DNA from: Maribacter arenosus
Lineage (GTDB): Bacteria; Bacteroidota; Bacteroidia; Flavobacteriales; Flavobacteriaceae
Direction: 5' to 3'
Assembly (NCBI RefSeq): GCF_014610845.1
Contig: NZ_JABTCG010000001.1
Coordinates: 930,001-994,000 of the forward strand
Length of the DNA: 64,000 nucleotides
The position numbers were made by a program, and so were the translations under genes. Positions 1 through 13,888 of this stretch are shown in pieces. The notes below the pieces were generated by a model. It saw only the letters and a list, made by a program, of their open reading frames with translations. It made no database searches and was not told the origin of the DNA. The first letter of the stretch is position 1, and each line of letters begins with the position of its first letter.

Positions 1-1074
1 GTCCATGAAAAAGAATTTTATAAGAATACAGAAGTCTTTCGATGTTATGTTTCCGACACATCAAAAAGTCCAAATTTTCTCGGTAGGTTATTTGGCTTTT
101 TTTCATTTGTTTTTTCTAGTACCTGGGCAGGTTTATTTAAAGTCAGGGGGAAATATGATCTAATGCTCGTTACTTCTCCCCCATTATTCGTTGCCATTCC
201 CGCTTATATTTTGTCATCTGTTAAAAGAATACCCTTAATTTTTGAAGTACGGGATTTATGGCCGGAGTCCGCCATAGATACGGGTGTCATAAGCAATCCC
301 TTTTTGATAAAATTTTCGTATTGGTTTGAAAAGACCATTTACAAAAAAGCAAAGTTAATAAATGTTCTGACACCCGCATTCAGGGAAAAATTAATAAAAG
401 ACAAGAATATACCGACTGAAAAGATAATCTATATACCTAACGCTGCTGATTTTTCTGTAGCAGATAAAGTAATGGCCGATTTTGACGCCAAAAAATTTAG
501 AATAGAGGAAGGTATCGATGATAAGTTTGTTGTAACCTATATAGGCGCCCATGGAATTGCAAATCATTTGATTCAACTCATCGAGGCTGCTGAAAGGTTG
601 CAAGACACCAATGTGCTGTTTCAACTTGTAGGTGAGGGTATGACCAAAAACTCACTAATGGAAGCAGTTAAAGCAAAAAAGCTACAAAATGTTCGCTTTA
701 TAGGTCATGTAAATAAATCGATGGCATTCAAATACATATTGGCCTCCGATGTGGGAACTTCCGTATTAAAAAAAGTCGATACCTTTAAAACTATTTATTC
801 CAATAAGACGTTCGATTATATGTCCTGTAAAAAACCTGTTTTATTGGCCATAGATGGTGTTTCGAGACAATTGGTTGTTGAGGATGCTAAATGTGGGGTA
901 TTTGCGGAACCAGAGAATGCCGATGATATTGCGGAAAAAGTTAGGCAGTATATTCGAGGTGATTTTGATATGAAAGAACAAGGGGAAAACGGTTATTTAT
1001 ATGCCAAGGAGCATTTTGATAGAGAAAAATTGGGACTTAAATACCTAAAGGAAATGCAAAGATTATTAAAGTAA
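1..1074 (+). CDS. Glycosyltransferase family 4 (GT-B), 5' end outside window
   Basis: The reading frame is open from base 1 to the stop at 1072-1074, so the gene starts upstream of the window. The first in-frame ATG (163) is internal, because the coding sequence before it reads as normal protein. The visible part carries the EVRDLWPES motif seen in WbuB-type GT4 enzymes, which sits at the domain junction. It also has the C-terminal nucleotide-sugar-binding Rossmann half, with a VGEG turn and an NKTFDYMSCKKPVL segment matching the usual 'K-x-x-EYM-x-x-GKP' donor-binding region. Such enzymes transfer an activated sugar to a lipid-linked acceptor on the cytoplasmic face of the membrane. The position just before wecB-wecC places it in surface-polysaccharide synthesis. 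Its sugar specificity cannot be told from sequence. Confidence 0.88.
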   Translation, partial: VHEKEFYKNTEVFRCYVSDTSKSPNFLGRLFGFFSFVFSSTWAGLFKVRGKYDLMLVTSPPLFVAIPAYILSSVKRIPLIFEVRDLWPESAIDTGVISNPFLIKFSYWFEKTIYKKAKLINVLTPAFREKLIKDKNIPTEKIIYIPNAADFSVADKVMADFDAKKFRIEEGIDDKFVVTYIGAHGIANHLIQLIEAAERLQDTNVLFQLVGEGMTKNSLMEAVKAKKLQNVRFIGHVNKSMAFKYILASDVGTSVLKKVDTFKTIYSNKTFDYMSCKKPVLLAIDGVSRQLVVEDAKCGVFAEPENADDIAEKVRQYIRGDFDMKEQGENGYLYAKEHFDREKLGLKYLKEMQRLLK

Positions 1075-1128
1075 TTGTACCTGCAATAAAATTTACAACT
1101 TCAAATAATAAGCCTATAAAATTAAAGA

Positions 1129-2250
1129 ATGAAAAAGAAAAATCTAATTATTTTCGGCACCCGTCCAGAAGCCATTAAGATGGCCCCTTTGGTAAAAGAG
1201 TTTTTAAAAAACCCAACTTTTGAAACAAAGGTTTGTGTTACCGCACAACATCGAGAAATGCTCGATCAGGTGCTGGATTTCTTTGAAATAGTACCGGATT
1301 ATGATTTGAATCTAATGAAACCAGGCCAGAACCTCTACGGTTTAACTGCGGCCATAATTACTGGGTTACAACCCGTTCTCGAAGATTTTAAACCGGATTA
1401 TGTATATGTTCATGGGGATACCACCACCACCATGGGATCAAGTATTGCGGGCTTCTATTCCGGGGCAAAAATTTGTCATGTAGAAGCCGGGTTACGAACT
1501 TTTAACAAGCAATCCCCTTTTCCTGAGGAAATCAATAGAACAATTACAGGACATGTTGCGGATTATCATTTTGCCCCAACACAAACTTCGTTCGACAATT
1601 TACGGAATGAGGGCATTTCCAAAGAAAATATTTTAATCACCGGCAATACGGTTATTGATGCACTTTTCGAAAGCGTTTCCAAAGTTGACAACCTCGAGGA
1701 TCCTGAAATTATACATCTAAAGCGCGAGCTGGATTTTACTAAAAGGATCATATTGGTCACAGGACATCGAAGGGAAAATCACGGGCAAGGATTTATCAAT
1801 ATTTGTAATGCCTTAAAAGAAATCGGGGAAAGGGTAGATAATGTACAGATCATTTATCCGGTGCATTTAAATCCAAAAGTACAGAAACCGGTATATGATA
1901 TTTTAGGAAAGCAAGACAATATAAAATTAATCGCCCCATTGGCATACCCCGCCTTTGTTTGGCTCATGAACAAATGCGAGCTCGTGATCACTGATAGTGG
2001 TGGCGTACAGGAAGAAGCCCCAAGTTTGGGCAAACCCGTTCTCGTTATGCGTGACACCACCGAAAGGCCCGAAGCTGTGGATGCCGGTACGGTAATCCTA
2101 GTGGGTACCGATACCAAAAAAATTGTGAGTGAGACCATAGATCTTATGGGCAATACAGAGCGATATAAAAATATGAGCAGACTTCATAACCCGTATGGGG
2201 ATGGAAAGGCGAGTAAAAGAATTGTGGAATTTATACAAAATTTGAATTAA
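1129..2250 (+). CDS. wecB: UDP-N-acetylglucosamine 2-epimerase (non-hydrolysing)
   Basis: This enzyme interconverts UDP-GlcNAc and UDP-ManNAc in the cytoplasm. At 373 residues it has normal family length. Diagnostic motifs are [12 protein letters not shown] (about 10-21), HGDTTTT (about 95-101), EAGLRT (about 119-124), FPEEINR (about 131-137), GHRREN, and the C-terminal TDSGGVQEE plus RDTTERPEA loops that bind UDP. The stop codon overlaps the start of the next gene by one base (TAATG), so the two are translationally coupled. Together with that dehydrogenase it would supply UDP-ManNAcA for a surface glycan. The ATG at 1129 is directly followed by the canonical N-terminal strand. Confidence 0.96.
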
Positions 2251-3461
2251 TGAACAATCCAGAAGTAGTAATGATCGGGCTTGGCTATATTGGCCTGCCA
2301 ACAGCAGCTTTAATAGCTGAAGGAGGAACCTATGTACATGGTGTCGACATCAACCAAAATGTGGTGGATACCATCAATAGGGGTGAAATCCATATCGTGG
2401 AACCTTCTTTGGATAAATCGGTATCGAATGCGGTAAGTAAAGGGTTTTTAAAAGCTGCAACAACACCCGTAGTGGCAAACACCTACTTAATTGTTGTACC
2501 TACCCCTTTTAAAGACAAAAATGAACCGGATATTTCTTTCGTCCATGCTGCGACCACTGCAATACTTCCTTTGCTGAAAGAAGGTGATTTGTATATCATC
2601 GAATCTACCTCCCCCATAGGTACTACGGAAAAGATGATGACCTATATCTATGAAGAACGTCCCGAACTCAATGGAAAATTGCATATTGCTTATTGCCCTG
2701 AACGCGTATTGCCAGGGAATGTGATGTATGAATTGGTGCACAACGACCGTGTTATTGGAGGAATTGATGGGAAATCTACAGAAAAAGCCGTTGCTTTTTA
2801 TGCTAAATATGTAAAGGGTGAATTGCATAAAACCAATGCGCGGACAGCCGAAATGTGCAAATTGGTGGAAAACTCATCCAGGGATGTTCAAATAGCCTTT
2901 GCCAACGAATTGTCGTTGATTTGCGATAAAGCTGATATCAATGTTTGGGAATTGATAAACTTGGCCAACAAGCACCCTAGGGTAAACATTTTACAGCCCG
3001 GATGTGGGGTTGGTGGTCATTGTATCGCCGTGGACCCTTACTTCATTGTAGCCGATTACCCCATGGAATCTAAAATAATAGGGACTGCGAGGGAGGTGAA
3101 TAATTATAAATCATTTTGGTGTGCAGAAAAGGTCCAAAATACCAAGCTGCAATTTGAATTGCAACATGGTAGAAAGCCCAAAATTGCATTGATGGGTCTG
3201 GCTTTTAAACCGGATATTGATGATTTAAGGGAGTCTCCGGCCAAATATATTGTACAACGTGTATTACAAAATGCGAATAATGAAGAGTATTATATTGTAG
3301 AACCCAATATACATGAACATAACGTATTTAAACTCACAGACTATAAAACGGCTTTTGAAAAGGCCGATATCGCTGTTTTTCTTGTGGCTCATAAAGAGTT
3401 TAAGTCCTTAACCAAAACCCCTGATAAGGTGGTATTGGATTTTTGCGGAATCTATAAGTAA
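2250..3461 (+). CDS. wecC: UDP-N-acetyl-D-mannosamine dehydrogenase
   Basis: An NAD-dependent nucleotide-sugar dehydrogenase that oxidises UDP-ManNAc twice to UDP-ManNAcA. The 403-residue protein has the N-terminal GLGYIGLP dinucleotide-binding loop (10-17), VPTPF, ESTSPIGTTE, and the catalytic segment GCGVGGHCIAVDP with the nucleophile at Cys258. The C-terminal LMGLAFKPDIDDLRESPA region is the UDP-binding domain. GGHC after the nucleophile loop is the WecC-type version rather than the UDP-glucose dehydrogenase type. Its start overlaps the epimerase stop by one base, so the pair forms one operon. A UDP-GlcNAcA-forming dehydrogenase is less likely because of the adjacent 2-epimerase. Confidence 0.94.
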   Translation: MNNPEVVMIGLGYIGLPTAALIAEGGTYVHGVDINQNVVDTINRGEIHIVEPSLDKSVSNAVSKGFLKAATTPVVANTYLIVVPTPFKDKNEPDISFVHAATTAILPLLKEGDLYIIESTSPIGTTEKMMTYIYEERPELNGKLHIAYCPERVLPGNVMYELVHNDRVIGGIDGKSTEKAVAFYAKYVKGELHKTNARTAEMCKLVENSSRDVQIAFANELSLICDKADINVWELINLANKHPRVNILQPGCGVGGHCIAVDPYFIVADYPMESKIIGTAREVNNYKSFWCAEKVQNTKLQFELQHGRKPKIALMGLAFKPDIDDLRESPAKYIVQRVLQNANNEEYYIVEPNIHEHNVFKLTDYKTAFEKADIAVFLVAHKEFKSLTKTPDKVVLDFCGIYK

Positions 3462-3576
3462 CAACTTATATTAAAGTGGAATATGGTGTTATAGTAAATG
3501 CAAAAAACAAGAATTGCATTTGGCAATAATTCTACGTTAAAAGACGATTTTTAATTAATGTTCGTTATGTTAAGAG

Positions 3577-5334
3577 TTGGCAATCAAACTAGTTAGAAAC
3601 CAAATAAAAGTGAAAGATTTTTTACAACTTAAAAAAAACCTTAAAAAAGACTTTTCCAGTTTAAAAACTATCAAATTGGCGGTCTTAGGGGATACTGCTA
3701 CCCAATTTTTAACTCAAGCTTTGAGGGGTTTAGGCTATGACCATGGTTTCAACCTTGAAATATGGGAGGCCGATTTTAATCAGATCGAAAGACAAGTATA
3801 TGATCTTTCCTCTGATTTGTTCGAATTTAAGCCAGATTTGGTTCTTATATTTCAATCTTCCCATAAATTATTGGGGAAATACAATAAACTGGATCCAGAA
3901 AAACAGACTTCCTTGGCAACTGATGAGTTGGATGCCATTGATACGATGTATTCCAATATCACGAATCACCTTTCAGCCAAAATAATATATTACAATTATA
4001 CTGAAATTGATGATTCCATTTTTGGGAATTATGCCAATAAAACAGAAGCCTCTTTTCTATTTCAATTACGAAAACTCAATTATGAGTTGATGGTAATGGC
4101 CTCAAAAAAACCAAATTTGTATTTATGTGATCTTTCTACTTTACAAAATCAAGAGGGAAAAAGATGTGTTTTTCAGCCCTCTATGTACGTTAGCACGGAA
4201 ATGGTTTTAAGTATCGATATCTTACCTTATGTAGCGGAAAAATCAATTGATTTGATCAAAGCCATCAATGGCAAGATCAAAAAATGTGTGATTCTTGATT
4301 TGGATAATACGACGTGGGGAGGAGTTATCGGCGATGATGGTTTAGAGAATATTCAAATAGGTAATTTGGGAATTGGAAAAGCTTTTTCCGAATTCCAATA
4401 TTGGATCAAAAAATTAAAGAACAGAGGAATTATCGTTGCTGTTTGCAGTAAAAATACAGAGTCTATTGCAAAGGAACCCTTTGAAAAACACCCTGATATG
4501 GTGTTGCGATTGACGGATATTTCTGTTTTCATCGCCAACTGGGAAAATAAAGTAGATAATATACGGCAAATACAAAGCATTCTGAACATCGGTTTTGATT
4601 CTATGGTCTTTTTGGATGACAACCCTTTTGAACGCAATATAGTTCGGGAAAACATTCCGGATATTTGTATTCCTGAATTACCCGAAGACCCCGCCAATTA
4701 TTTGGAATATTTATACGGGTTGAATCTTTTTGAAACCGTTTCTTTTTCAAATGAAGACGCAGAACGAACCAAACTCTATCAAATTGAAGCTGAGAGAGTG
4801 AAGGTCCAGAAAAAATTCACGAATGAGGATGATTTCTTGGCCAATTTGGATATGACATCGGAAATAAAACCTTTTAATAAATTCAATAGGCCAAGAGTAG
4901 CCCAATTATCCCAACGAACAAATCAATTTAATCTGAGGACAATTCGTTATTCGGAAGGGGATATTGAACGAATTTCCAAATCCAAGGATTATGCTACATT
5001 TACATTTACGCTTGAGGATAAATTTGGGGATAATGGATTGATATGTGTAATAATCTTACACAAAGAAGATAAAGAATCCTTATTCATAGATACTTGGTTT
5101 ATGAGTTGTAGGGTACTAAAACGGGATATGGAAAATTTTGTACTGAATACAATCCTAGATTATGCAAAAGAAAACGGATTTTTATATATTAAAGGGGAAT
5201 ACATCCCAACGGCAAAGAATGCGATGGTAAAAGACCTTTATCCAGATTTTGGGTTTAAGAAAAATGACCCTTATTATATCCTAGAAGTAAAGAATGCCAA
5301 AATTAAAACAAGCCATATTAAAATCAAGAAATAG
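3577..5334 (+). CDS. FkbH-like HAD-IIIC phosphatase/acyltransferase
   Basis: A three-part protein of up to 585 residues. The N-terminal region (about 30-230) resembles an SGNH-hydrolase-like fold, with LAVLGDTATQ near residue 34. A HAD phosphatase core follows, with the nucleophile motif DLDNT at 241-245, SKN at 291-293 and FLDDNP at 345-350. The C-terminal part (about 430-575) looks like a GNAT-type domain. Characterised relatives (FkbH, OzmB) dephosphorylate 1,3-bisphosphoglycerate and load the glyceryl group on an acyl carrier protein. That chemistry is plausible here because an acyl carrier protein follows at once. There is no ATG near the 5' end. TTG at 3577 is the first possible start, just after an in-frame stop, and GTG at 3610 is a good alternative. 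The DNA is more AT-rich than wecBC. The substrate is inferred. Confidence 0.87.
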   Translation: MAIKLVRNQIKVKDFLQLKKNLKKDFSSLKTIKLAVLGDTATQFLTQALRGLGYDHGFNLEIWEADFNQIERQVYDLSSDLFEFKPDLVLIFQSSHKLLGKYNKLDPEKQTSLATDELDAIDTMYSNITNHLSAKIIYYNYTEIDDSIFGNYANKTEASFLFQLRKLNYELMVMASKKPNLYLCDLSTLQNQEGKRCVFQPSMYVSTEMVLSIDILPYVAEKSIDLIKAINGKIKKCVILDLDNTTWGGVIGDDGLENIQIGNLGIGKAFSEFQYWIKKLKNRGIIVAVCSKNTESIAKEPFEKHPDMVLRLTDISVFIANWENKVDNIRQIQSILNIGFDSMVFLDDNPFERNIVRENIPDICIPELPEDPANYLEYLYGLNLFETVSFSNEDAERTKLYQIEAERVKVQKKFTNEDDFLANLDMTSEIKPFNKFNRPRVAQLSQRTNQFNLRTIRYSEGDIERISKSKDYATFTFTLEDKFGDNGLICVIILHKEDKESLFIDTWFMSCRVLKRDMENFVLNTILDYAKENGFLYIKGEYIPTAKNAMVKDLYPDFGFKKNDPYYILEVKNAKIKTSHIKIKK

Positions 5335-5338
5335 AGGT

Positions 5339-5581
5339 ATGATAAGAGAAGAAATGTTAAAACAAATAAATGAAATTTTTATTGACACCTTGGACAATGA
5401 AGATATAGTTGTTGAAGAATCTACCAAAGCTGAAGATGTGGATGACTGGGATTCCTTAACGCACATATTGTTGGTCGTGGCCATTGAAAAACATTTCAAG
5501 ATCAGTTTTAAATCCAATGAAATCCAAAATTGGAACGACGTAGGTGAAATGATGGATTGTATACAAGAAAAAGGAATATGA
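5339..5581 (+). CDS. Acyl carrier protein 1 (partner of FkbH-like protein)
   Basis: A small acidic four-helix protein of 80 residues whose DWDSLTHI motif holds the phosphopantetheine attachment serine (Ser39 counted from ATG 5339). It should carry an acyl thioester for the neighbouring enzymes in the cytoplasm. The open frame begins further upstream at ATG 5294, inside the FkbH-like gene. ATG 5339, or ATG 5354 preceded by AAGAGAAG, gives the normal carrier-protein length (80 or 75 residues) and avoids a 41-base overlap. The stop overlaps the next gene's ATG (ATGA), which indicates translational coupling. A 4'-phosphopantetheinyl transferase is not encoded in this window. Confidence 0.88.
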   Translation: MIREEMLKQINEIFIDTLDNEDIVVEESTKAEDVDDWDSLTHILLVVAIEKHFKISFKSNEIQNWNDVGEMMDCIQEKGI

Positions 5582-5976
5582 TTTTTAAAGTAAAGGATAC
5601 CTTTAAAGAATTATTTATCGTAAACAAAGAAACTTATGAGGGGTTTATCCATGTTTTCAAGGACAATAACCCCCTACATACGAATCAGCAATTTGCTATT
5701 GATAAAGGATTTGATGGCGTAGTGATGCACGGGAATATTTTAAATGGCTTTTTATCCTATTTTATTGGTGAAAAACTACCAACAAAGGATGTCATAATCC
5801 ATTCCCAAGAGATTCAATTTAAAAATGCGGTTTACTTAAATGATGAATTACAATTTAATGCCGAAGTTATCGGGATGTATGAATCGGTGAAAGCGGTGGA
5901 GTTTAAGTATAATTTTACAAATAGAAACGCTCAAATTGTTGCCAAAGGCAAATTCCAAATAGGTGTAATAAAATGA
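5578..5976 (+). CDS. MaoC-type (R)-specific enoyl-acyl hydratase / dehydratase
   Basis: A single hot-dog-fold protein of 132 residues from the ATG at 5578, which overlaps the carrier-protein stop as ATGA. A TTG 21 bases earlier also opens the frame but is less likely. The hydratase-2 motif is clear as DNNPLH with Asp29 and His34, followed by GFDGVVMHGNILNG as in PhaJ and MaoC enzymes. These enzymes reversibly hydrate a trans-2-enoyl thioester to an (R)-3-hydroxyacyl thioester. The glycine that usually precedes the catalytic aspartate is lysine here. With the reductase just downstream it would process a beta-carbon on a carrier-protein-bound acyl chain. Whether the substrate is ACP- or CoA-linked is inferred from context. 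Confidence 0.85.
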   Translation: MIFKVKDTFKELFIVNKETYEGFIHVFKDNNPLHTNQQFAIDKGFDGVVMHGNILNGFLSYFIGEKLPTKDVIIHSQEIQFKNAVYLNDELQFNAEVIGMYESVKAVEFKYNFTNRNAQIVAKGKFQIGVIK

Positions 5977-6695
5977 ATATATTAATCACAGGCGGCGGTT
6001 CAGGATTGGGAGAAGCAATTACAAGGGTTCTTGCAAAAGATGCAACGAACACGATTTATTTTACATTTTCGAATTCGGAAAAAAACGCTAGAAAACTCAT
6101 AATGGATTTCAGTAATACAAAATCCATCAAATGTGATTTCAAAAAGGAATCTGAAGTCGATTCCCTTGTTAATACCATTGGTTCTCTGAATATCGACGTC
6201 TTGATCAACAATGCATACCATGATAATGCCACTCGAACCCATTTTTATAAAATACCCCAGGAGGACTTTACCACTGATTTCAACAATAATATTATCCCGA
6301 CAATACGCATTGCACAGGCTGCTATTGCCCTTTTCAGAAAGAAAAAAAGCGGGAAATTGATTACCGTTTTAACCTCAGGCTTAGCAAACACACCTCCACT
6401 TGGCTGGGCGTGCTATACCGCAAATAAAGCCTACTTGGGGTCTTTGGTAAAATCTTGGGCAAGTGAAAACATAAAATTCAATATAACTTCCAATGCCGTT
6501 TCCCCCTCATTCATGCAGACAAGTTTAACATCCGAAATTGACCATAGAATTATAGATCAAATGATCGCCGATCATCCTTTGAAAAAACTATTAACGGTTG
6601 AGGAGGTTGCCGAAACTATACTTTTTTTAACAAAAGCTTCATCACACATCAATGGTGTTGACATCTTAATGAACCATGGAATTAATATCAAATAA
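5973..6695 (+). CDS. SDR-family oxidoreductase (FabG-like)
   Basis: A classical short-chain dehydrogenase/reductase of 240 residues. The cofactor loop is TGGGSGLG (6-13), NNAY carries Asn80, and the catalytic set is Ser135, Tyr148 and Lys152 in the YTANK motif. It most resembles 3-oxoacyl-ACP reductases in overall layout, but it could also reduce a sugar or another keto group. The start ATG overlaps the stop of the MaoC gene (ATGA), and only three bases separate its stop from the next start. It is therefore part of one polycistronic unit with the acyl-carrier genes. Reduction of the beta-keto product of the neighbouring synthase is the most economical role. Confidence 0.87.
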   Translation: MNILITGGGSGLGEAITRVLAKDATNTIYFTFSNSEKNARKLIMDFSNTKSIKCDFKKESEVDSLVNTIGSLNIDVLINNAYHDNATRTHFYKIPQEDFTTDFNNNIIPTIRIAQAAIALFRKKKSGKLITVLTSGLANTPPLGWACYTANKAYLGSLVKSWASENIKFNITSNAVSPSFMQTSLTSEIDHRIIDQMIADHPLKKLLTVEEVAETILFLTKASSHINGVDILMNHGINIK

Positions 6696-6698
6696 ATT

Positions 6699-7769
6699 AT
6701 GAATCTATCGTTTAGCAATAAGAAAATTACAGGTATTCTTACAGTTTTACCAAAAAATGAAGTCAATTTTGAGGATGAAATTGACAATTATGATTTTACA
6801 CATCGGCAATCCATGAAACTCAAATTGGTCATGGGTTTTGATAAACGTAGAGTAGTAAATAAGGGTACAACAATTTCAGATTTATGTGTATCGGGTTTGA
6901 ATTATCTATTCGATAAAAAACTACTGCATAAAAATGATATTGACGCTTTAATCGTGGTCACGGTATCCCCAGATCATTTTATGCCCCCAACAAGTCATAT
7001 TATTCATGGTAGACTTGGTTTAAAGCAAGATATCTACTGCACCGATATTACCCAAGGGTGTGCTGGCTATCCAATTGGTTTAAATCAAGCCTTTATGTTG
7101 CTTGAACAAGATGAAATCAACAAAGTAGTGGTGCTTAATGCCGATATCATGAGTACGAAAGTATCGAAAAATGATAGGAGTAGTAGACCTATAATTGGGG
7201 ATGCGGCATCAATTACCATTGTTGAGAATGATTCGAATGGCAAAACTATATATGGTTCCATAAAGGCTGAAGGCGCAGGGGCAGACGCCTTGATTATTCC
7301 TGCAGGGGCTTTTAAACTGCCTTCCTCTGAAATGACCGCAAAATTGGAGAAAGATAAATCGGGGAATCTAAAATCATTGGACCATGTAGACATGAAAGGT
7401 GACGAAGTCTTTAATTTTGTTCAAAAAGAAGTTCCTCCAATGATCGATAATTTATTGGATAAGGCGGGTTCATCAAAAGAGGACGTAGATTATTTCATGT
7501 TTCATCAGCCTAATAAATTCATGTTAAAACAACTTGCAAATCAGATGGGTGTTTCAGAAATAAAGGTCCCAAATAACGTTGTTGAAAATTTTGGTAATGC
7601 CAATAGTGTTACAATACCTACGGCAATTACATTTAATTTGGGAAGTAAATTAAAAAATGAATCTTTTCTTATTTGCATGGCAGGGTTTGGAGTTGGATTA
7701 AGTTGGTCTTCGCTTTTAATGGAAATGAGTAATTTAGACTTTTGCGAAACTATTGATTACGATAATTAA
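6699..7769 (+). CDS. 3-oxoacyl-ACP synthase III-like (KAS III) enzyme
   Basis: A 356-residue thiolase-fold condensing enzyme. The catalytic triad expected of FabH is visible: Cys121 in TQGCAGYPIG, His269 in FHQPNKFM and Asn300 in NFGNANS. FabH condenses a starter acyl-CoA with malonyl-ACP. This paralogue lies in a polysaccharide locus between an SDR and a second acyl carrier protein, so it probably makes one specific short acyl chain rather than serving general fatty-acid synthesis. It could equally catalyse acyl transfer, as some FabH-like enzymes do. The coding DNA is notably AT-rich; I count 35 G+C in the 120 bases 7561-7680. Confidence 0.87.
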   Translation: MNLSFSNKKITGILTVLPKNEVNFEDEIDNYDFTHRQSMKLKLVMGFDKRRVVNKGTTISDLCVSGLNYLFDKKLLHKNDIDALIVVTVSPDHFMPPTSHIIHGRLGLKQDIYCTDITQGCAGYPIGLNQAFMLLEQDEINKVVVLNADIMSTKVSKNDRSSRPIIGDAASITIVENDSNGKTIYGSIKAEGAGADALIIPAGAFKLPSSEMTAKLEKDKSGNLKSLDHVDMKGDEVFNFVQKEVPPMIDNLLDKAGSSKEDVDYFMFHQPNKFMLKQLANQMGVSEIKVPNNVVENFGNANSVTIPTAITFNLGSKLKNESFLICMAGFGVGLSWSSLLMEMSNLDFCETIDYDN

Positions 7770-7772
7770 ACT

Positions 7773-7988
7773 ATGGAAAACTATATATCAATAATATCTG
7801 AAATCTTGGAAGTAGAAACTGTTGAACTCAGTGATGAACTAAACTCTTTCGAAGCATGGGATTCATTGGCAGTTTTATCTATAATCGCTTTTTGTGATTC
7901 GGAATATAGTGTGGCCTTATCGGCAGAGGAAATCAATAACTCAGGAACTATTTTGGGGCTAAAGGAGCTAATAGAAGGTAAAATGTAG
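7773..7988 (+). CDS. Acyl carrier protein 2
   Basis: A 71-residue acidic protein starting three bases after the KAS III-like gene. The AWDSL motif places the phosphopantetheine serine at residue 31, and a helix-rich, Glu-rich C-terminus follows. It differs clearly in sequence from the first carrier protein of the cluster, so the two are unlikely to be recent duplicates and may hold different acyl groups, for example starter and extender, or glyceryl and acyl. It is the last gene of the tightly packed run that starts at 3577; a 323-base gap follows. Confidence 0.85.
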   Translation: MENYISIISEILEVETVELSDELNSFEAWDSLAVLSIIAFCDSEYSVALSAEEINNSGTILGLKELIEGKM

Positions 7989-8311
7989 TGTAAGCGATGC
8001 AACCATTTATGTCGGATATTTATAAAAACCCTTTTTTTTATGAAAGCCAAAAGTGCAGATTATGAGTAGCCTATAAAAAAGGACGTACAAATAGTTTGTC
8101 CTAAAACCGAAGAAATTATACTTTAACAACAGGTATAATTAGAGTTAAGCCAATGAAGATTGGTAAATATATAACATAGAAATTGCGACTATTAGATAAG
8201 ATTTTATACTACATTATTATTTTAAACCTATTCTTTTAAAAATTGAATTGCCATTTCCAATAATAAAAAGTAGATTTGGGTTAAATACAATCGCTAAAGC
8301 ATATTAGGAAT
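7989..8311 (+). other. 323-base gap between carrier protein 2 and PglD-like gene
   Basis: AT-rich DNA with no convincing gene. It contains a short open stretch from ATG 8009 (18 codons) that looks like a decayed or chance ORF. A weak hairpin is formed by AGGAC (8080-8084) and GTCCT (8098-8102). The rest may hold the promoter of the downstream acyltransferase, but I see no clear TAnnTTTG element. Confidence 0.4.
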
Positions 8312-8977
8312 ATGAGAAACGTAATTATTTTAGGTACCGGTGGAGGTGCCTCGGAAGTAACATTTTTTATCGAAGACAATAATACCAAAGTACCTGAAGG
8401 GGAAAGAATTAATATTTTGGGTTATATCGATTATGCAGAAAATGTAAAGCCGCATTATGACCGATATAATTTCGAGGCTCCTGTTTTATGCGATATTGAT
8501 GCTTACGAACCAAAACCTGATGAGGAGGTCTTGATTGCGATTATGGATATCGCTTTTAGAGAGAAAATGATAAAGGCCTTATTGGCCAAGAAGGCTAAAA
8601 TCGGTAGTTTTATCCACCATAGCGTTGTACTTCCTAAAAATCTTAATATCGGTGAAGGAAATATAGTAGGCCCATTTTGTATGTTGGAGAAATATGCCAC
8701 CATAGGTAGTTACAACTTGCTTACGGCCTATTGTTTTATCGCTCATGATTGTGTTGTGGGGGACAATAACTTTTTTTCAGTAGCAGGTGTTGCCGGATCG
8801 GTCAAAGTGGGTAATAACAATTACTTCGGAATTAGATCATTTGCAATTCCAGGTGTTGAGATCGGCAACAATAATGTGATCCAAGCCGGAATGACCGTGG
8901 ATAAAAATGTCAAAGACGATACAACGGTTTTCTATCGCTTTAAAGAAAAAGTTATGGCGATTCCTAAAGTAAATTAA
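8312..8977 (+). CDS. PglD/NeuD-like sugar O/N-acyltransferase (left-handed beta-helix)
   Basis: A 221-residue protein with an N-terminal nucleotide-sugar-binding Rossmann-like part (ILGTGGGASE near residue 6). About 100 residues of hexapeptide repeats follow, such as IGEGNIVGP, IGSYNLL, VGDNNFF, VGNNNYF and IGNNNVI, and these form a left-handed beta-helix. Relatives (PglD, NeuD, WeeI) transfer acetyl from acetyl-CoA to an amino sugar or sialic acid. Its place at the end of the polysaccharide locus fits glycan acylation. Because a carrier-protein-based acyl pathway lies just upstream, an acyl group other than acetyl is possible, but that is speculation. No aminotransferase is visible nearby. 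Confidence 0.87.
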   Translation: MRNVIILGTGGGASEVTFFIEDNNTKVPEGERINILGYIDYAENVKPHYDRYNFEAPVLCDIDAYEPKPDEEVLIAIMDIAFREKMIKALLAKKAKIGSFIHHSVVLPKNLNIGEGNIVGPFCMLEKYATIGSYNLLTAYCFIAHDCVVGDNNFFSVAGVAGSVKVGNNNYFGIRSFAIPGVEIGNNNVIQAGMTVDKNVKDDTTVFYRFKEKVMAIPKVN

Positions 8978-9016: not shown

Positions 9017-9703
9017 TTATTTCTGTTTATGAAAGCCGGCATAAAACCTTTCTTCCTTTTTTAAAGCCTTATAATTAGGGTCGTTGAATCCAGCTTTTAT
9101 CATCAATTCATTTACTTTATCAATATCGTAATCTACCCTATGTAAGGAAATATTCCCATTTTCAACTAGGGCAAATGCCGCTTTTGGGTTTCGATCTCTA
9201 GGTTGACCTACGGAACCTGGATTACAGTAGAGTTTATCTTTGTACACCTGCAACGTTTGAATATGGGTATGACCAGACATAAATATTTCACCTTCAATTC
9301 TTGAAAAATATTCTTCGCTCGGTACCTTTAAATATTCATCAATGGGATCGGACCATCCGCCATGAACCATATGAATGTTGCCAACAAACCGTTGTATGGC
9401 ACTCGACCGAAGCCATTTAATATTTTTATCGGTAATTACTTCCCTTTGATAAATTAGGCAATCATTAACACTGCTAGATCGAGGGCAAAAACCACCACTG
9501 GCCAAATACCAATCATGATTGCCCATTAAATTCGGGATTTCCCTTTTTTGGAGTTCTTCACAACATTCATTGACCTGGGAATAATATCCAACGACATCTC
9601 CCAAACTATAAATTTCCGAGACTCCCAATCTGTCCAATTCGGAAAGAACCGATTTTAAAGCCTCATAATTGCCATGTATATCTGATATTACCCCTATTTT
9701 CAC
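9017..9703 (-). CDS. Metallophosphoesterase (YfcE/MJ0936-type)
   Basis: A compact calcineurin-like phosphoesterase of about 228 residues. The metal-binding blocks occur in order: DIHGN, GDVVGYY, GNHDWY, VHGGW and SGHTHIQ, followed by NPGSVGQPR. Enzymes of this group hydrolyse phosphodiesters or phosphomonoesters with two metal ions; the physiological substrate is unknown. GTG at 9703 gives the usual N-terminus (M-KIGVISDIHGN). TTG at 9721 would add six residues. The start lies in one arm of an inverted repeat (see the site at 9701-9761). It converges with the acyltransferase gene at 8977. Confidence 0.85.
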   Translation of the reverse strand: MKIGVISDIHGNYEALKSVLSELDRLGVSEIYSLGDVVGYYSQVNECCEELQKREIPNLMGNHDWYLASGGFCPRSSSVNDCLIYQREVITDKNIKWLRSSAIQRFVGNIHMVHGGWSDPIDEYLKVPSEEYFSRIEGEIFMSGHTHIQTLQVYKDKLYCNPGSVGQPRDRNPKAAFALVENGNISLHRVDYDIDKVNELMIKAGFNDPNYKALKKEERFYAGFHKQK

Positions 9704-9761: not shown

Positions 9762-9847
9762 CAACCACTCGATGCATTCGCTCTCACATTAAAAATTCTA
9801 AACATTCCCTTTTGTGAAAAAATGTTTAAAATTTATTAATGTTCGTT

Positions 9848-10810
9848 TCATGAATAAAAAATAAAATCCTCTACATATCTAATCGCTTTTCCTTGTTTAA
9901 TTTTTGGCTGTTTTGGAATTTTACCTTCCAAATAATATTCAATGGCCATGATGGCATCATTATAGCCAAAGGCACTCCTCATCGATGTAGATGCGGAAAA
10001 ACGTGGATTGATCTCTAAAAGTTGACACACCCCATTGTGAATCCTGAACTGAAAGTTCGTGGGTCCCATTGGTTTTAAAATTTTACAAATACCCAATACG
10101 GCTTCTTCGATTTGTTTACTCTCAAACACCTCTGCCTCATTGGTATATCCTTCCTTCGATAATTTTCTTTTAAAAGTTATTATGGCATAATATCCCCCCT
10201 TTCCGTCACAAAACGCACCCGTTGTGAACTCTTCATCATCCTGTCCAACTATAGGTTGAACCATCAGATGGTTGCCAATTTCGGCTTTGTGAAGATTAAA
10301 GGTATCTTCATCCTTTACCTTGACAATCCCTTTAGAGGCAAAACCCTTTCGCGGTTTTAATAACAATGGCAAACCAAATTCCTTTACCAATTCATCAAAA
10401 TCAGATGAAAGCGAACTGGGAATGGCATACGGACAGTTGTTGCTTTTCAGCACTTGATAAAATTCCCATTTATCATTGCATAAATGAACCAAATCAAAAT
10501 TATTCAAAACCAATTTAGCTCCTGTCAACTCTATTTGTTTTCTGTTATTGGATAGAAAATGGACGTCTTCGTCGAAACTTGGAATGACTAAATCTACATG
10601 GTGATCTTTAATAACTTTAATAATCCAATCAATATAACCCTCTGAACCACTAAATGGGGCATGGATACAAACATCGGTAAAGGCCGGGGCAATGGAATTT
10701 TCATGAATTGTTGATCCAATTAAATTAAAGGGTTTTTTCGTACCTCTAATTGATTTTAGAATTCCATAGCCAATTAGTGAACTGGCTCCTGTTACGAAAA
10801 TATTTTTCAT
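9848..10810 (-). CDS. ATP-grasp family ligase (carbamoyl-phosphate-synthase-like)
   Basis: A 320-residue protein with an N-terminal Rossmann-like pre-ATP-grasp part (FVTGASSLIGYGI, 5-17) and an ATP-grasp fold. The ATP-binding lysine lies in LLLKPRKGFASKG (Lys152) and the Mg-binding segment EINPRFS at 266-272. The family joins a carboxylate, through an acyl phosphate, to an amine or thiol. Stand-alone members near glycan loci may attach amino acids to sugars or make short peptides, but no specific substrate can be read here. It stands alone, with 126 bases to the phosphoesterase and 161 bases to the OmpA-like gene. Its position at the edge of the polysaccharide locus is suggestive only. Confidence 0.83.
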   Translation of the reverse strand: MKNIFVTGASSLIGYGILKSIRGTKKPFNLIGSTIHENSIAPAFTDVCIHAPFSGSEGYIDWIIKVIKDHHVDLVIPSFDEDVHFLSNNRKQIELTGAKLVLNNFDLVHLCNDKWEFYQVLKSNNCPYAIPSSLSSDFDELVKEFGLPLLLKPRKGFASKGIVKVKDEDTFNLHKAEIGNHLMVQPIVGQDDEEFTTGAFCDGKGGYYAIITFKRKLSKEGYTNEAEVFESKQIEEAVLGICKILKPMGPTNFQFRIHNGVCQLLEINPRFSASTSMRSAFGYNDAIMAIEYYLEGKIPKQPKIKQGKAIRYVEDFIFYS

Positions 10811-10971
10811 AGGTCTTTATAAAGTTGATCCTAGTTTTTATAAGCTACTTAAGCTTTTAGAATAAATCTTAAACAAATTTATAGTTATTATTTCCCCCTA
10901 CAATGATACTAATCAATTTCTATAAACAAATCATTGTTCCGTATTCCTTTAGCTAACATATTAGTATTAGC

Positions 10972-12153
10972 TCAATAGCTTATCACCTTAAACGCCGACC
11001 TCCTATTCTGTCTGTGCTTTTCTTCGGAACATCGAATATGGTCCTTGCATTCATTGATCAATTCGGTCTCACCAAAAGCCTCCCCTACTAGCCTAGCCCC
11101 ATCTATTCCTTTCTGTTCAACCAAATACGCTTTGGTATGTTGCATCCTTTTTTCGGAGAGCCACATATTGTATTTTTCTGGACCCCTGGAATCGGTATGG
11201 GAGCCGATTTTTAAGGTCACAGATGGATTCTCTTGCAGGATCAAGGCCAACCTATCCAATAACCCCTTGTAGGGTTTGTTTAAATAGGAAGAATCAAAAT
11301 CAAAATAGACATGACCCAAAGCATTTATAGCATCCTCCAATTGTTGTCTTCTCTGTTTCTCGGCATCCAACTTCTCTTTTTCCAAAGCTGTGAGTCTTGC
11401 TTTTTCCTTTTCTTGGGCCAATCGTTCAGCCATAGCCGCTTCGTCCTTGGCTCTTTGCACGGCAGATAAGGAATCGGCAACACGTTGCTTGTCATTTTCC
11501 ATAGCCGTGATCAGGGCTAATTTTTCCTCCCCTTTTTTAGAAAGGCCTTTTTCCACATCAAATCTATAAACAACTCCCGCAGAATGCTGTAATTGCTTTG
11601 TTGTACCTTCTTTAATACCCCATTTCCCCATGGTGTTGAAATTTGCTCCCCACCTATCGCTGAACCAAGTATTAAAGCCAAAACCAGCATTTGCTGTAGA
11701 CCTACCTACATTACCAATAGAACTATATCCCGCGCCAACATGAAGATAAGGGTCGAACCAGTTGGTTTCTCCGATCAATTTATTTAAATCGTAACTTATT
11801 TTTCCATCAATGGCAAAGTAATCACGTGGCGCAGTATTTATAGCTCCATCAATGATCTTTCCAACCTTATATTTATTATAGGTACCTATGGCCTCTATAC
11901 CCAGTCCATTCTTGAAAAACCTACCTATACTGATTCTGGATGGATAAGGCACTGCGTTCCATGTATCTTTGATATCCAAGAAGGTTTCACCAAATGGTGT
12001 AGCCGTATCGTCCACTATATTTAAGCCGAGTCCTAAGACCCAAGAACTTTGGACAATACTGTCTTTTGAAGTGAGCTGTATATCTTCTTGGGATAAAATC
12101 GGAGTGGTGGCAAGCATTAGCAATACCAATACACATAGCGTATAATTTTTCAT
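10972..12153 (-). CDS. OmpA-family outer-membrane protein
   Basis: A 393-residue exported protein with a clear signal peptide (hydrophobic 5-20, TPILSQ cleavage region). Residues from about 30 to 195 are rich in alternating aromatic and glycine residues typical of an eight-stranded beta-barrel. A charged, Glu/Lys/Ala-rich coiled coil of about 65 residues follows (205-270). The C-terminal OmpA peptidoglycan-binding domain (about 280-390) shows YFDFDSSYL, IGSHTDSRGPEKYN and LSEKRMQHT. It would anchor the outer membrane to the cell wall. It is monocistronic. The long coiled coil between barrel and OmpA domain is more extended than in E. coli OmpA and may work as a periplasmic spacer. Confidence 0.92.
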   Translation of the reverse strand: MKNYTLCVLVLLMLATTPILSQEDIQLTSKDSIVQSSWVLGLGLNIVDDTATPFGETFLDIKDTWNAVPYPSRISIGRFFKNGLGIEAIGTYNKYKVGKIIDGAINTAPRDYFAIDGKISYDLNKLIGETNWFDPYLHVGAGYSSIGNVGRSTANAGFGFNTWFSDRWGANFNTMGKWGIKEGTTKQLQHSAGVVYRFDVEKGLSKKGEEKLALITAMENDKQRVADSLSAVQRAKDEAAMAERLAQEKEKARLTALEKEKLDAEKQRRQQLEDAINALGHVYFDFDSSYLNKPYKGLLDRLALILQENPSVTLKIGSHTDSRGPEKYNMWLSEKRMQHTKAYLVEQKGIDGARLVGEAFGETELINECKDHIRCSEEKHRQNRRSAFKVISY

Positions 12154-12273
12154 AGGTTAAGATTTTGGACTTCAGGGAGTAAAGTAATGGGTAAGTTGAA
12201 ATCTTAACAAATAAGTTGTTTGAAAAGCCTAGAATTTCGGTAGAATGCGCGAAATGGTGTCCCTAAGTTGATT

Positions 12274-12741
12274 TTATTGCTCCTTTTCAAAGGAAATCCT
12301 CTTGTGTGTCAATGGCATTTTATAGACACTAAAAGGACTTACCAGTGCTGTGGAAGCACTCTTTTCTTTCGTTGTTTCTATAGCTGTTGTCTTCAGTATC
12401 AATTCTTCATCGTTCTCAGCAGCCAACGATAGTGATACCTGCCTCCCAACGGACTGCTCACCACTACAAAGGATCAATATCATTTCCTGGGCAAAGTCAA
12501 CCTCTGGGACCGGTATTCCCGGTTTACGGGTCCTATTTACTTTTGAAAAGAATTTTTGTAGGGTTTTGCTATCCTTTATAATCAGGGTATCCGGGGTAAT
12601 GGAACCGCTATAATTATCTTGAAGCACCAAAGTGAGTGAACCAAAATCGTCGTTTTGCCCATCCCCATTTTCCATAGCGGCCTTTTTTTGTCCTTTACAG
12701 GAAAAAAGAATAGCAAAAATAATCAGTGTCAAATATCTCAT
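12274..12741 (-). CDS. Predicted lipoprotein, possibly PrcB-like domain
   Basis: A 155-residue protein with a lipoprotein signal peptide; the lipobox LFSC ends at Cys15. The mature part is a small beta-rich domain with the pattern DFAQEMILILCSGEQ..., which loosely recalls PrcB_C-type domains that assist proteases. This resemblance is by eye only and uncertain. It starts one base after the bshA stop on the same strand, so the two are almost certainly co-transcribed. That link is interesting because BshA is cytoplasmic whereas this protein should sit on a membrane. No catalytic residues are evident. Confidence 0.72.
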   Translation of the reverse strand: MRYLTLIIFAILFSCKGQKKAAMENGDGQNDDFGSLTLVLQDNYSGSITPDTLIIKDSKTLQKFFSKVNRTRKPGIPVPEVDFAQEMILILCSGEQSVGRQVSLSLAAENDEELILKTTAIETTKEKSASTALVSPFSVYKMPLTHKRISFEKEQ

Positions 12742-12742
12742 C

Positions 12743-13888
12743 CTATTTTAAAGTCTCGTTCAAACGGGTATTATAGGCCTTCAAGTAAATCGATTCATAT
12801 AAAGGTAGTACATTTAGAATATCAAATTTCGCCGCTACTCTTGCTGCATTGTCCTTAAAACGCTCCAAGGTAGCTTCATCCTTTAAAATTTTCAAGGCAT
12901 TGCTTGCCATATCTTCTACATCCCCTACATTGCTTAAAAAGCCAGTAACACCATGAATATTAACCTCTGGAATACCTCCAGCATTGGTTGAAATAACGGG
13001 TACCCTATTGATCATGGCTTCTAAAGCTGCCAATCCAAAACTTTCCGATTTGGATGGTAAAAGGAACAAATCTGAAAAACATAGTATCCTATCTATTTCA
13101 TTACTGTTACCTAGAAAATGTACCTTATCCATAATCCCTAACTGCTCGCATAGGAACTCGGCATTCTCTTTTTCGGGACCTTCACCGACCATGACCAATT
13201 TTGAGGGAATTTCCTGCTGTATCTTATTGAAGATATGGATGACATCGGGGATATGCTTTACCGCTCTAAAATTGCTTATATGGGTGATAATCCGCTCGTG
13301 TTCTTCAGCCATTAACGACCTTTGACAATCTGTAAACGAAGTGCTATACTTATTTTTATCGATAAAATTAGGTACTACCTCAATCTCTTTTTCAATATCA
13401 AAGAATTCAAGGGTACGCTGTTTTAAATTCTCTGAAACCGCTGTGACTACATCGGATTGGTTGATACTGAAATTAACGGCGGTCTTATAAAATGGATGTT
13501 TTCCCACTAGCGTTATGTCCGTTCCATGTAATGTCGTAATCATTGGCAGGTATATTCCCTCTTCCTCCAACATTTTTTTAGCCATATAGCCCGCATAGGC
13601 ATGTGGAATGGCATAGTGTACATGCAATAAATCTATCCCGTACAATTTGACGGTATCTACCAATTTACTGGATAAAGCCAATTCATAGGGTTGATAGTGG
13701 AATAAAGGATATTCCGGTACATGAACCTCATGAAAGTGAATTCGATGGCTCAACAAGTCTAAACGTACCGGTTGGCGATACGTTACAAAATGCACTTCAT
13801 GGCCCCTATCGGCCAATGCAATTCCTAATTCCGTGGCCACGACACCACTTCCACCAAACGTTGGGTAACAAACAATCGCTATCTTCAT
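12743..13888 (-). CDS. bshA: N-acetyl-alpha-D-glucosaminyl L-malate synthase (bacillithiol)
   Basis: A GT4 glycosyltransferase of 381 residues. BshA couples UDP-GlcNAc to L-malate, the first step of bacillithiol synthesis, in the cytoplasm. Typical BshA features are the N-terminal CYPTFGGSGVVATELG loop, HVHYAIPHAYAG, TLHGTDITLVG and the donor-site E-x7-E pattern in SESFGLAALEAM. Length and motifs match the BshA group rather than generic GT4 enzymes. It is followed by a lipoprotein gene one base away, and it lies 132 bases downstream of the GH3 fusion gene. BshB and BshC are not in this window. Confidence 0.92.
   Translation of the reverse strand: MKIAIVCYPTFGGSGVVATELGIALADRGHEVHFVTYRQPVRLDLLSHRIHFHEVHVPEYPLFHYQPYELALSSKLVDTVKLYGIDLLHVHYAIPHAYAGYMAKKMLEEEGIYLPMITTLHGTDITLVGKHPFYKTAVNFSINQSDVVTAVSENLKQRTLEFFDIEKEIEVVPNFIDKNKYSTSFTDCQRSLMAEEHERIITHISNFRAVKHIPDVIHIFNKIQQEIPSKLVMVGEGPEKENAEFLCEQLGIMDKVHFLGNSNEIDRILCFSDLFLLPSKSESFGLAALEAMINRVPVISTNAGGIPEVNIHGVTGFLSNVGDVEDMASNALKILKDEATLERFKDNAARVAAKFDILNVLPLYESIYLKAYNTRLNETLK

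Follow-up and report, generated by a model that had tools for sequence, protein, structure and literature searches.

Acyl groups on surface polysaccharides influence serotype and recognition, and the biosynthesis of the unusual short ones has been worked out for few. This study focuses on a cassette of six genes, fkbH, acp1, maoC, sdr, kas3 and acp2, at 3577–7988 of a 64,000-nucleotide stretch of Maribacter arenosus DNA (the window; positions 930,001–994,000 of contig NZ_JABTCG010000001.1). The closest described system is the R1 cassette (wfpC-wfpG, with pglE/pglF) of the O-polysaccharide of Flavobacterium psychrophilum, in which the 3,5-dihydroxyhexanoyl R1 group is the predicted product of wfpC and wfpE (both β-ketoacyl synthases, KAS), wfpD (an acyl carrier protein, ACP), wfpF (a reductase) and wfpG (a PglD homologue), which would build and transfer it, and where strains alike in the rest of the O-polysaccharide locus differ in their R-group genes (PMC6519341).

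The glycerate-utilisation operons of tetronate pathways (Mad7/Mad8/Mad16, RK-682, agglomerin) combine an FkbH-like protein, a stand-alone ACP and a FabH-like protein (PMC7489565, PMC4979870), and in aeruginosin-type peptides FkbH domains are predicted to load glycerate (PMC10143770). As for glycans, Campylobacter jejuni carries an fkbH-domain gene, cj1302, in its flagellin glycan locus and makes dimethylglyceryl-pseudaminic acid (PMC7099621), and a paper on cyanobacterial natural products mentions FkbH together with polysaccharide (PMC7600079). The accessible text of PMC3210612 lists (S)-3-hydroxybutanoyl on a QuiNAc4N residue, with no match there to glyceric or glyceroyl.

In the present study, the cassette is confirmed as a real set of intact, closely packed genes in a fixed order, of which only the half that loads the starter appears to be exchanged among related bacteria. 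The kas3-acp2 pair, usually near an N-acyltransferase gene, is best read as a fixed chassis, and the DNA upstream of it as an exchangeable starter loader.

The six genes and their polysaccharide locus

The genes all lie on the + strand, head to tail, in the following order.

3577..5334, +, fkbH, predicted glyceryl loader (1,3-bisphosphoglycerate to ACP); PF21211 (FkbH_N) 1.1e-77; TIGR01686 296.5 bits, cut-off 146.65; match to 3SLR 2.5e-151
5339..5581, +, acp1, loader carrier protein; weak ACP-model matches, best E 3e-7, under curated cut-offs; DSL motif
5578..5976, +, maoC, hot-dog dehydratase/hydratase; PF01575 5e-11; top PDB sequence match 3-hydroxyacyl-thioester dehydratase 2 (3ir3)
5973..6695, +, sdr, FabG-like ketoreductase of the short-chain dehydrogenase/reductase (SDR) type; PF13561 4.2e-34; four PDB matches at 1e-20, CylG and FabG among them
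6699..7769, +, kas3, KAS III; PF08545/PF08541, N and C domains 2e-12 and 2e-19; Cys-His-Asn intact; the conserved chassis begins here
7773..7988, +, acp2, second carrier protein; DSL motif, length and conserved place

Two start codons are candidates for fkbH, TTG 3577 or GTG 3610. No Pfam or NCBIfam model matched acp2 at E <= 0.001. A sequence-only reading of this stretch had named these six families, with intact motifs, in genes packed by ATGA overlaps or 3-base gaps, and had taken FkbH for a loader of glyceryl units. The families agree with the model matches and motifs (for acp2, with its DSL motif, size and place), and the motifs are complete at the residues which we take to be catalytic: DLDNT, CSKN and DDNP of the HAD region of FkbH (in alignment to 3SLR), the KAS III triad (Cys121-His269-Asn300), D-x-N-[PS]-L-H of MaoC in 6/6 orthologues aligned and YxxxK of the SDR likewise in 6/6. 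FkbH has the features of a glyceryl-ACP synthase domain, namely FkbH_N, a TIGR01686 score over the cut-off and intact HAD motifs, which supports its predicted role as a glyceryl loader. The packing was almost as described, with ATGA overlaps at acp1/maoC and maoC/sdr and 3-base gaps at sdr/kas3 and kas3/acp2, but the fkbH/acp1 gap is of 4 bases, not 3.

The predicted structure of KAS III (mean predicted local distance difference test, pLDDT, 78.8) has KAS III/FabH entries as its first 33 fold matches, with PqsD, BioZ and OleA lower among the 50 listed; together with the triad and the PDB sequence matches, these point to the FabH-type condensing class. Since the six-gene order recurs on a second contig (L039, where fkbH is partial) and kas3 adjoins acp2 in 20/22 loci (see below), the gene order is judged to be beyond chance. 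L039 itself (1–3584) is a short contig binned as an Oleispira metagenome-assembled genome, and its KAS is 87% identical to that of the window, which suggests mis-binning or transfer.

On either side of the cassette are the following features.

163-1074, glycosyltransferase open reading frame (ORF), partial at the left end of the window; the whole ORF begins 171 bases before the window (L004 1830-3074)
1129..2250, +, wecB, UDP-GlcNAc 2-epimerase, left flank; TIGR00236 502.6 bits, cut-off 210; kept in genomes G006 and G629
2250..3461, +, wecC, UDP-ManNAc dehydrogenase; NF008286 538 bits, cut-off 459; the exchanged stretch is bounded on the left by its stop codon
8312..8977, +, PglD/NeuD-like hexapeptide N-acyltransferase, likely last step; TIGR03570 111 bits, under the cut-off of 160.8; His145-Asp146 kept in 8/8 aligned

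The window sits within a 1.14-Mb contig of a 4.17-Mb genome, and the cassette is confirmed to lie inside a large polysaccharide locus, the setting first proposed for it. The wecB and wecC genes, both over their NCBIfam equivalog cut-offs, come directly before fkbH, and upstream are a polysaccharide tyrosine autokinase (TIGR01007, over cut-off), a flippase-family protein (PF13440), DegT aminotransferases, a WbqC protein, glycosyltransferases (those outside the window by eye) and a sugar-phosphotransferase-like protein whose model score is under the cut-off. About 17–20 kb upstream of fkbH, a PglF-like dehydratase (PF02719, 2.8e-122) is paired with a DegT aminotransferase (1.6e-88); the best NCBIfam models for this PglF/PglE-like pair are PseB and LegC-type, both under their cut-offs, so that the identity of its sugar is tentative.

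The gene for the PglD-like acyltransferase starts 323 bp past acp2, and UDP-N-acetylbacillosamine N-acetyltransferase PglD (3bss) ranks third among the PDB sequence matches of its protein (3e-13), in support of the earlier view that the product is probably an acyl decoration of a glycan. The locus thus has two genes of the PglD/NeuD family, this divergent one and a canonical NeuD-family acetyltransferase (L002 16503-17114; 200 bits, over the cut-off) about 26 kb before fkbH, and the two could compete for one 4-amino sugar.

The GC content of the six genes is 0.32–0.37, that of wecB/wecC and of the window 0.40, and that of other neighbours 0.36–0.38; because several neighbours are low too, the values for the cassette are not taken as evidence of transfer. 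Scans gave 25 promoters, with 26.3 expected, and 6 terminators, with 3.8 expected. Far to the right, at 52148-60682, is a minus-strand ORF of 2844 codons.

Starter loaders and the kas3-acp2 pair in related loci

The kas3 comparison covered 22 distinct loci, including the window (L040, the same locus as L037, and L006–L009, short copies of L035–L038, were left out), and loaders and neighbours were called from tblastn matches to reference proteins lying no further than about 6 kb from kas3. The Cys-His-Asn triad, as expected of a decarboxylating KAS III, is intact in 22/22. A carrier gene lies upstream of kas3 in 21 of the loci (L041 is the exception; loci of the FkbH type can have maoC-sdr or a VOC gene in between), and acp2 adjoins kas3 in 20 (not in L041 or L094). 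N-acyltransferase homologues are likewise present in 20/22, comprising NeuD (13), PseH-like GNAT with DegT (5) and AAC(3)-family proteins (2; L047 and L094), and both loci without one (L039, L048) are contigs of less than 3.7 kb. One locus, L092, has the order pglC-A domain-ACP-kas3-acp2-sdr-mbl-NeuD-pglE-pglF, the layout that would be expected if NeuD replaces PglD on a UDP-4-amino sugar.

The sole full exception to the carrier-KAS-carrier layout is L041 (2230-3730), which has an adenylation (A) domain and no carrier on either side of kas3. AAC(3)-family (PF02522) and metallo-beta-lactamase-fold proteins occur in the acyl-glycan cassettes of L042 (10031-11535), L046 (10031-11506) and L094, as called by family scan for the L042 pair and by similarity in the other loci; as a guess, they are a sugar N-acyltransferase and a thioesterase rather than resistance genes.

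The DNA upstream of kas3-acp2 is far more varied. FkbH is the loader in five of the 22 loci (the window, L036, L037, L039 and L086), and an A domain of the amino-acid adenylation type is the only loader in ten. The remaining seven comprise three with an A domain plus a GNAT or a second KAS, two with a GNAT on contigs that end upstream, and two with a second KAS. The A domain tested, that of L038, scored 338 bits against an amino-acid adenylation cut-off of 317, and its likeness to DltA is under the DltA cut-off. In 6/10 of the loci with an A domain alone (L035, L038, L045, L087, L088, L091), the loader is accompanied by one or two small proteins that fall into no clear family; the one tested had a sole match, Pfam Ykof, under the cut-off (snoaL is a working label), and the predicted structure of the small protein of these loci had a mean pLDDT of 47 and was not used for a fold search. 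It may be guessed that an alanyl starter and an acetoacetyl unit could cyclise to the known 3-hydroxy-2,3-dimethyl-5-oxoprolyl group.

The exchange is seen most directly by comparing the window with L038, a locus of the same genus. Blastn homology covers 1127-3460, 6699-7990, 8237-8977, 9081-9702 and 9846-13887, and no DNA homology was found by blastn between 3460, the stop of wecC, and 6699, the start of kas3; in that gap L038 has two small genes of no clear family, an A domain and an ACP. L091, from another genus of the family, matches the window at 4-3460, then at 6768-7988, plus parts of the same right flank, and its gap holds a further A-domain loader. In both relatives, then, homology ends at the wecC stop and resumes at, or no more than 70 bp from, the kas3 start, with a different loader between, and both are syntenic with the window downstream from 9081. 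Loci with FkbH also differ from the window within this stretch: L086 matches it at 3542-5562 and 6698-7987, keeping fkbH-acp1 while maoC-sdr is absent, and L036 matches at 3541-5563 and 6711-7975, with a VOC gene in place of maoC-sdr. As only one of the 11 other genomes of the genus (G006) has both flanking genes at the limits used, the case for exchange at a single site rests on two relatives. In the KAS III tree, three of the five FkbH-type rows group together (support 88/94, not starred), while the remaining two pair up at another place, a topology compatible with more than one number of loader switches.

The cassette genes are accessory genes. With an orthologue limit of E <= 1e-60 and the window's own genome included in each count, kas3 was found in 1/395 genomes of the phylum sample, 9/397 of the family sample and 5/12 of the genus, and fkbH in 18/395 of the phylum sample; because scoring in the large samples was limited to the best few candidates of each genome, these counts may be low. 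The fkbH neighbourhood was retrieved for 12 of the 17 other phylum-sample genomes with a match. Each of fkbH-acp1, maoC-sdr and kas3-acp2 occurs without the others, and a single indivisible six-gene system is rejected. The sequence-only reading had seen one acyl assembly line and had expected its genes to be co-inherited rather than scattered. An acyl-ACP line is indeed supported, but as a loader joined to a kas3-acp2 chassis and not as one six-gene unit, and the expected co-inheritance is only half borne out, because each of the three pairs occurs apart from the others.

VOC proteins lie within about 4 kb of fkbH in 8/22 fkbH loci, including plasmids of Sinorhizobium meliloti and of a Rhodobacteraceae bacterium:

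L036 9572-9994
L037 10540-10956
L074 6141-6557
L075 9543-9920
L076 8429-8818
L077 7405-7791
L095 11359-11787
L097 3798-4265

The top NCBIfam match was methylmalonyl-CoA epimerase in 8/8 tested, all under the cut-off, and the protein is possibly an alpha-epimerase of glyceryl-ACP.

Candidate route and rival readings

The enzyme families, their intact motifs, the fixed chassis and the different loaders at one site can be read from the sequences themselves. Beyond this, we consider it somewhat better than an even chance, with the exact acyl group left aside, that the cassette couples a loader to KAS III extension and N-acyl decoration of a glycan. FkbH would, very probably, transfer a glyceryl unit from 1,3-bisphosphoglycerate to ACP1. 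MaoC might then remove water across C2-C3 of glyceryl-ACP1, giving enolpyruvyl/pyruvyl-ACP1, and the SDR might reduce the keto group to give lactyl-ACP1, steps that we regard as possible but somewhat doubtful. It is reasonably likely that KAS III would join the starter from ACP1 to malonyl-ACP2, giving a C5 product such as 4-hydroxy-3-oxo- or 3,4-dihydroxypentanoyl-ACP2; this is the simplest reading of KAS III, because a starter carrier lies on one side of it and its own carrier on the other. Finally, the PglD-like enzyme would probably place the acyl group on the amino group of a nucleotide 4-amino-deoxysugar, possibly from the upstream PglF-like/DegT pair.

A more specific proposal is offered tentatively, with the odds against it: FkbH-ACP-MaoC-SDR would be an undescribed route from 1,3-bisphosphoglycerate to lactyl-ACP, and one of a set of interchangeable 2-hydroxyacyl/aminoacyl loaders (bare FkbH, FkbH with an epimerase-like VOC protein, FkbH with MaoC-SDR, and DltA-like A domains) on a fixed KAS III-ACP-acyltransferase chassis, generating combinatorial variation of glycan acyl groups across Bacteroidota and beyond. 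For a MaoC-type enzyme, with 3-hydroxyacyl thioesters as substrates, dehydrating glyceryl-ACP (C2-H, C3-OH) would be ordinary chemistry, and the resulting pyruvyl-ACP could be reduced to lactyl-ACP by a FabG-like SDR; the route is drawn from gene sets and family chemistry.

This order of steps is suggested by operons elsewhere. At a limit of E <= 1e-18, maoC orthologues were found in 5/376 genomes of the order, the window's own included, and fkbH is present in all five (5/5, versus 18/395 in the phylum sample). In three species of one other genus (L067, L104, L105) there is an operon fkbH-acp-maoC-sdr-MBOAT, and the next gene encodes an approximately 310-residue protein that looks SGNH-like by eye; for the L105 copy, no Pfam family came up at 1e-6. 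When 16–18 kb stretches were searched by tblastn with two KAS references, no KAS turned up in these operons. Since FkbH-ACP-MaoC-SDR occurs with MBOAT in operons without a KAS, MaoC and the SDR may act on glyceryl-ACP itself; the sequence-only reading had the rest of the line extend or reduce the glyceryl unit, and this is modified accordingly in that the two enzymes may work on the C3 unit before extension. FkbH-ACP also occurs near MBOAT genes, in a Dlt-like layout, in L067, L068, L072, L073, L095, L097, L104 and L105 (MBOAT called by family models in L067 and L105, by annotation in L095 and L097, by similarity in L068, L073 and L104, and by eye in L072). The L067 protein scored 161 bits with TIGR04091 (DltB), under the cut-off of 375, and that of L105 matched PF03062 at 3e-14. 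Such loci may export glyceryl (or modified) esters to surface polymers.

Several observations weigh against the route through lactyl-ACP or against the wider reading. A gamma-hydroxy-beta-keto thioester could cyclise. The PglF-like/DegT pair is distant from fkbH, the canonical NeuD-family enzyme is present in the same locus, and the PglD-like protein of the window scores under the NeuD cut-off. There is no SDR match near kas3 in 9/10 A-domain-only loci, so that a beta-keto product there would need a reductase from elsewhere; kas3 of L041 has neither carrier beside it, and L094 is without acp2. As for the MBOAT operons, a kasD-like gene of L104 shares the strand of fkbH and lies some 5.5 kb away from it, the absence of KAS was judged with the two references and stretches given above, and in genome G048 maoC-sdr lies beside an MBOAT gene with fkbH-acp on another contig. 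Three of the five genomes with both maoC and fkbH belong to one genus. In another species of it (G320, L068) no maoC-sdr adjoins fkbH-acp, so fkbH may be common in the genus regardless of maoC; independent support for action before extension is thin for these reasons.

The likeliest alternative, which is nevertheless rather unlikely, has MaoC and the SDR acting after KAS III in the manner of fatty-acid synthesis, near the order first proposed: glyceryl would be extended to a C5 beta-keto intermediate and processed by the SDR and then MaoC to 3,4,5-trihydroxypentanoyl or 4,5-dihydroxypent-2-enoyl. Both families usually act on 3-hydroxy-/3-oxoacyl thioesters, as reflected in their PDB matches, and both genes adjoin kas3, but in the three one-genus genomes the maoC-sdr pair follows fkbH-acp in an operon where no KAS was found, and kas3 of L086 occurs in the absence of the pair. 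Less likely still is that KAS III is a transacylase, which adds no carbon and hands the glyceryl or lactyl unit of ACP1 on to ACP2, or else to the sugar, so that the glycan would carry N-glyceroyl or N-lactoyl. KAS III-fold acyltransferases such as CerJ and ChlB3 exist, the loaders seen deliver an acyl group to the first carrier, and nine of the ten A-domain-only loci show no nearby SDR that could process a beta-keto product; against this stand the full Cys-His-Asn triad kept in every locus, as expected for decarboxylative condensation, the KAS III/FabH entries that head the structure matches above PqsD, BioZ and OleA, and the FkbH-ACP-MBOAT operons, which contain no KAS. That the cassette makes a tetronate or other free small molecule, with the sugar genes as mere neighbours, is very improbable: its FkbH, ACP and FabH-like proteins are the conserved tetronate set, but it has a second dedicated ACP, aminosugar N-acyltransferase homologues are linked in 20/22 loci, and a scan of 10 proteins within the cassette and next to it, with the remainder of the genome not searched, gave no Agg4/Agg5-like partner (the acyltransferase and dehydratase of agglomerin and spirotetronate types), although such partners are not in every tetronate cluster. 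A flexirubin-type pathway was also rejected, as the SDR matches FlxB only weakly and the proteins scanned included no partner of that kind.

If the favoured reading of a loader, KAS III extension and N-acyl decoration is true, a fixed KAS III-ACP chassis with an exchangeable loader would explain how an acyl group alone changes on an otherwise similar glycan, each loader type would give one defined acyl-ACP, and hydroxyacyl decorations would arise by a glycolytic rather than an acyl-CoA route.

Comparison with described systems

In tetronate addition to perosamine by Vibrio cholerae O1 (rfbKLMNO), an ACP and an AMP ligase feed a sugar N-acyltransferase, in the manner of the A-domain loaders here, but no KAS III is known there. 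The flagellin glycan locus of C. jejuni contains FabH2 and extra ACPs. The Dlt-like FkbH-ACP-MBOAT loci share fkbH-acp1 with the window, plus maoC-sdr in three genomes, but have no kas3, and their MBOAT would export the acyl group rather than place it on a nucleotide sugar.

The tetronate operons share the FkbH, ACP and FabH-like set with the cassette; there, the FabH-like enzyme releases a polyketide as the tetronate, whereas here a second ACP and a sugar N-acyltransferase come next (PMC7489565, PMC4979870). The C. jejuni locus is similar in that it joins an fkbH-domain gene to glycan genes, and its sugars bear a glyceric acid derivative, although the accessible text states no role for cj1302 in the dimethylglyceryl group (PMC7099621).

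The sequence-only reading knew of no described system with exactly this set in a flavobacterial glycan locus. The exact set with FkbH was indeed not found in searches of open-licence papers, a scope outside which subscription papers mostly fall, and FkbH-MaoC-SDR is not described in the accessible text of PMC7489565, PMC4552970, PMC10143770, PMC4979870 or PMC7099621. Lactyl loading in bryostatin biosynthesis may be a precedent. The claim was too broad, however, in that C. jejuni cj1302 was already known as an fkbH-domain gene in a glycan locus (PMC7099621) and F. psychrophilum R1 wfpC-wfpG is a flavobacterial relative in kind (PMC6519341).

The likeness to the R1 cassette lies in the locus-specific ACPs (acp1, and acp2 by motif and place only), KAS (kas3) and ketoreductase (sdr), in a PglD-homologous acyltransferase (here 8312-8977) within a flavobacterial polysaccharide locus, and in PglF/PglE-type genes, which in the window's locus are the distant upstream pair. 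R1 has two KAS genes where the cassette has one KAS III (two KAS occur in L042, L047 and L048), and the cassette differs in its two ACPs and its glycolytic starter loader with MaoC; the word FkbH is absent from the main text on R1 (PMC6519341). What is new is the glycolytic FkbH loader with MaoC-SDR, plus the evidence of loader exchange upstream of a fixed KAS III-ACP chassis; otherwise, the cassette is kin to known acyl-ACP decoration cassettes.

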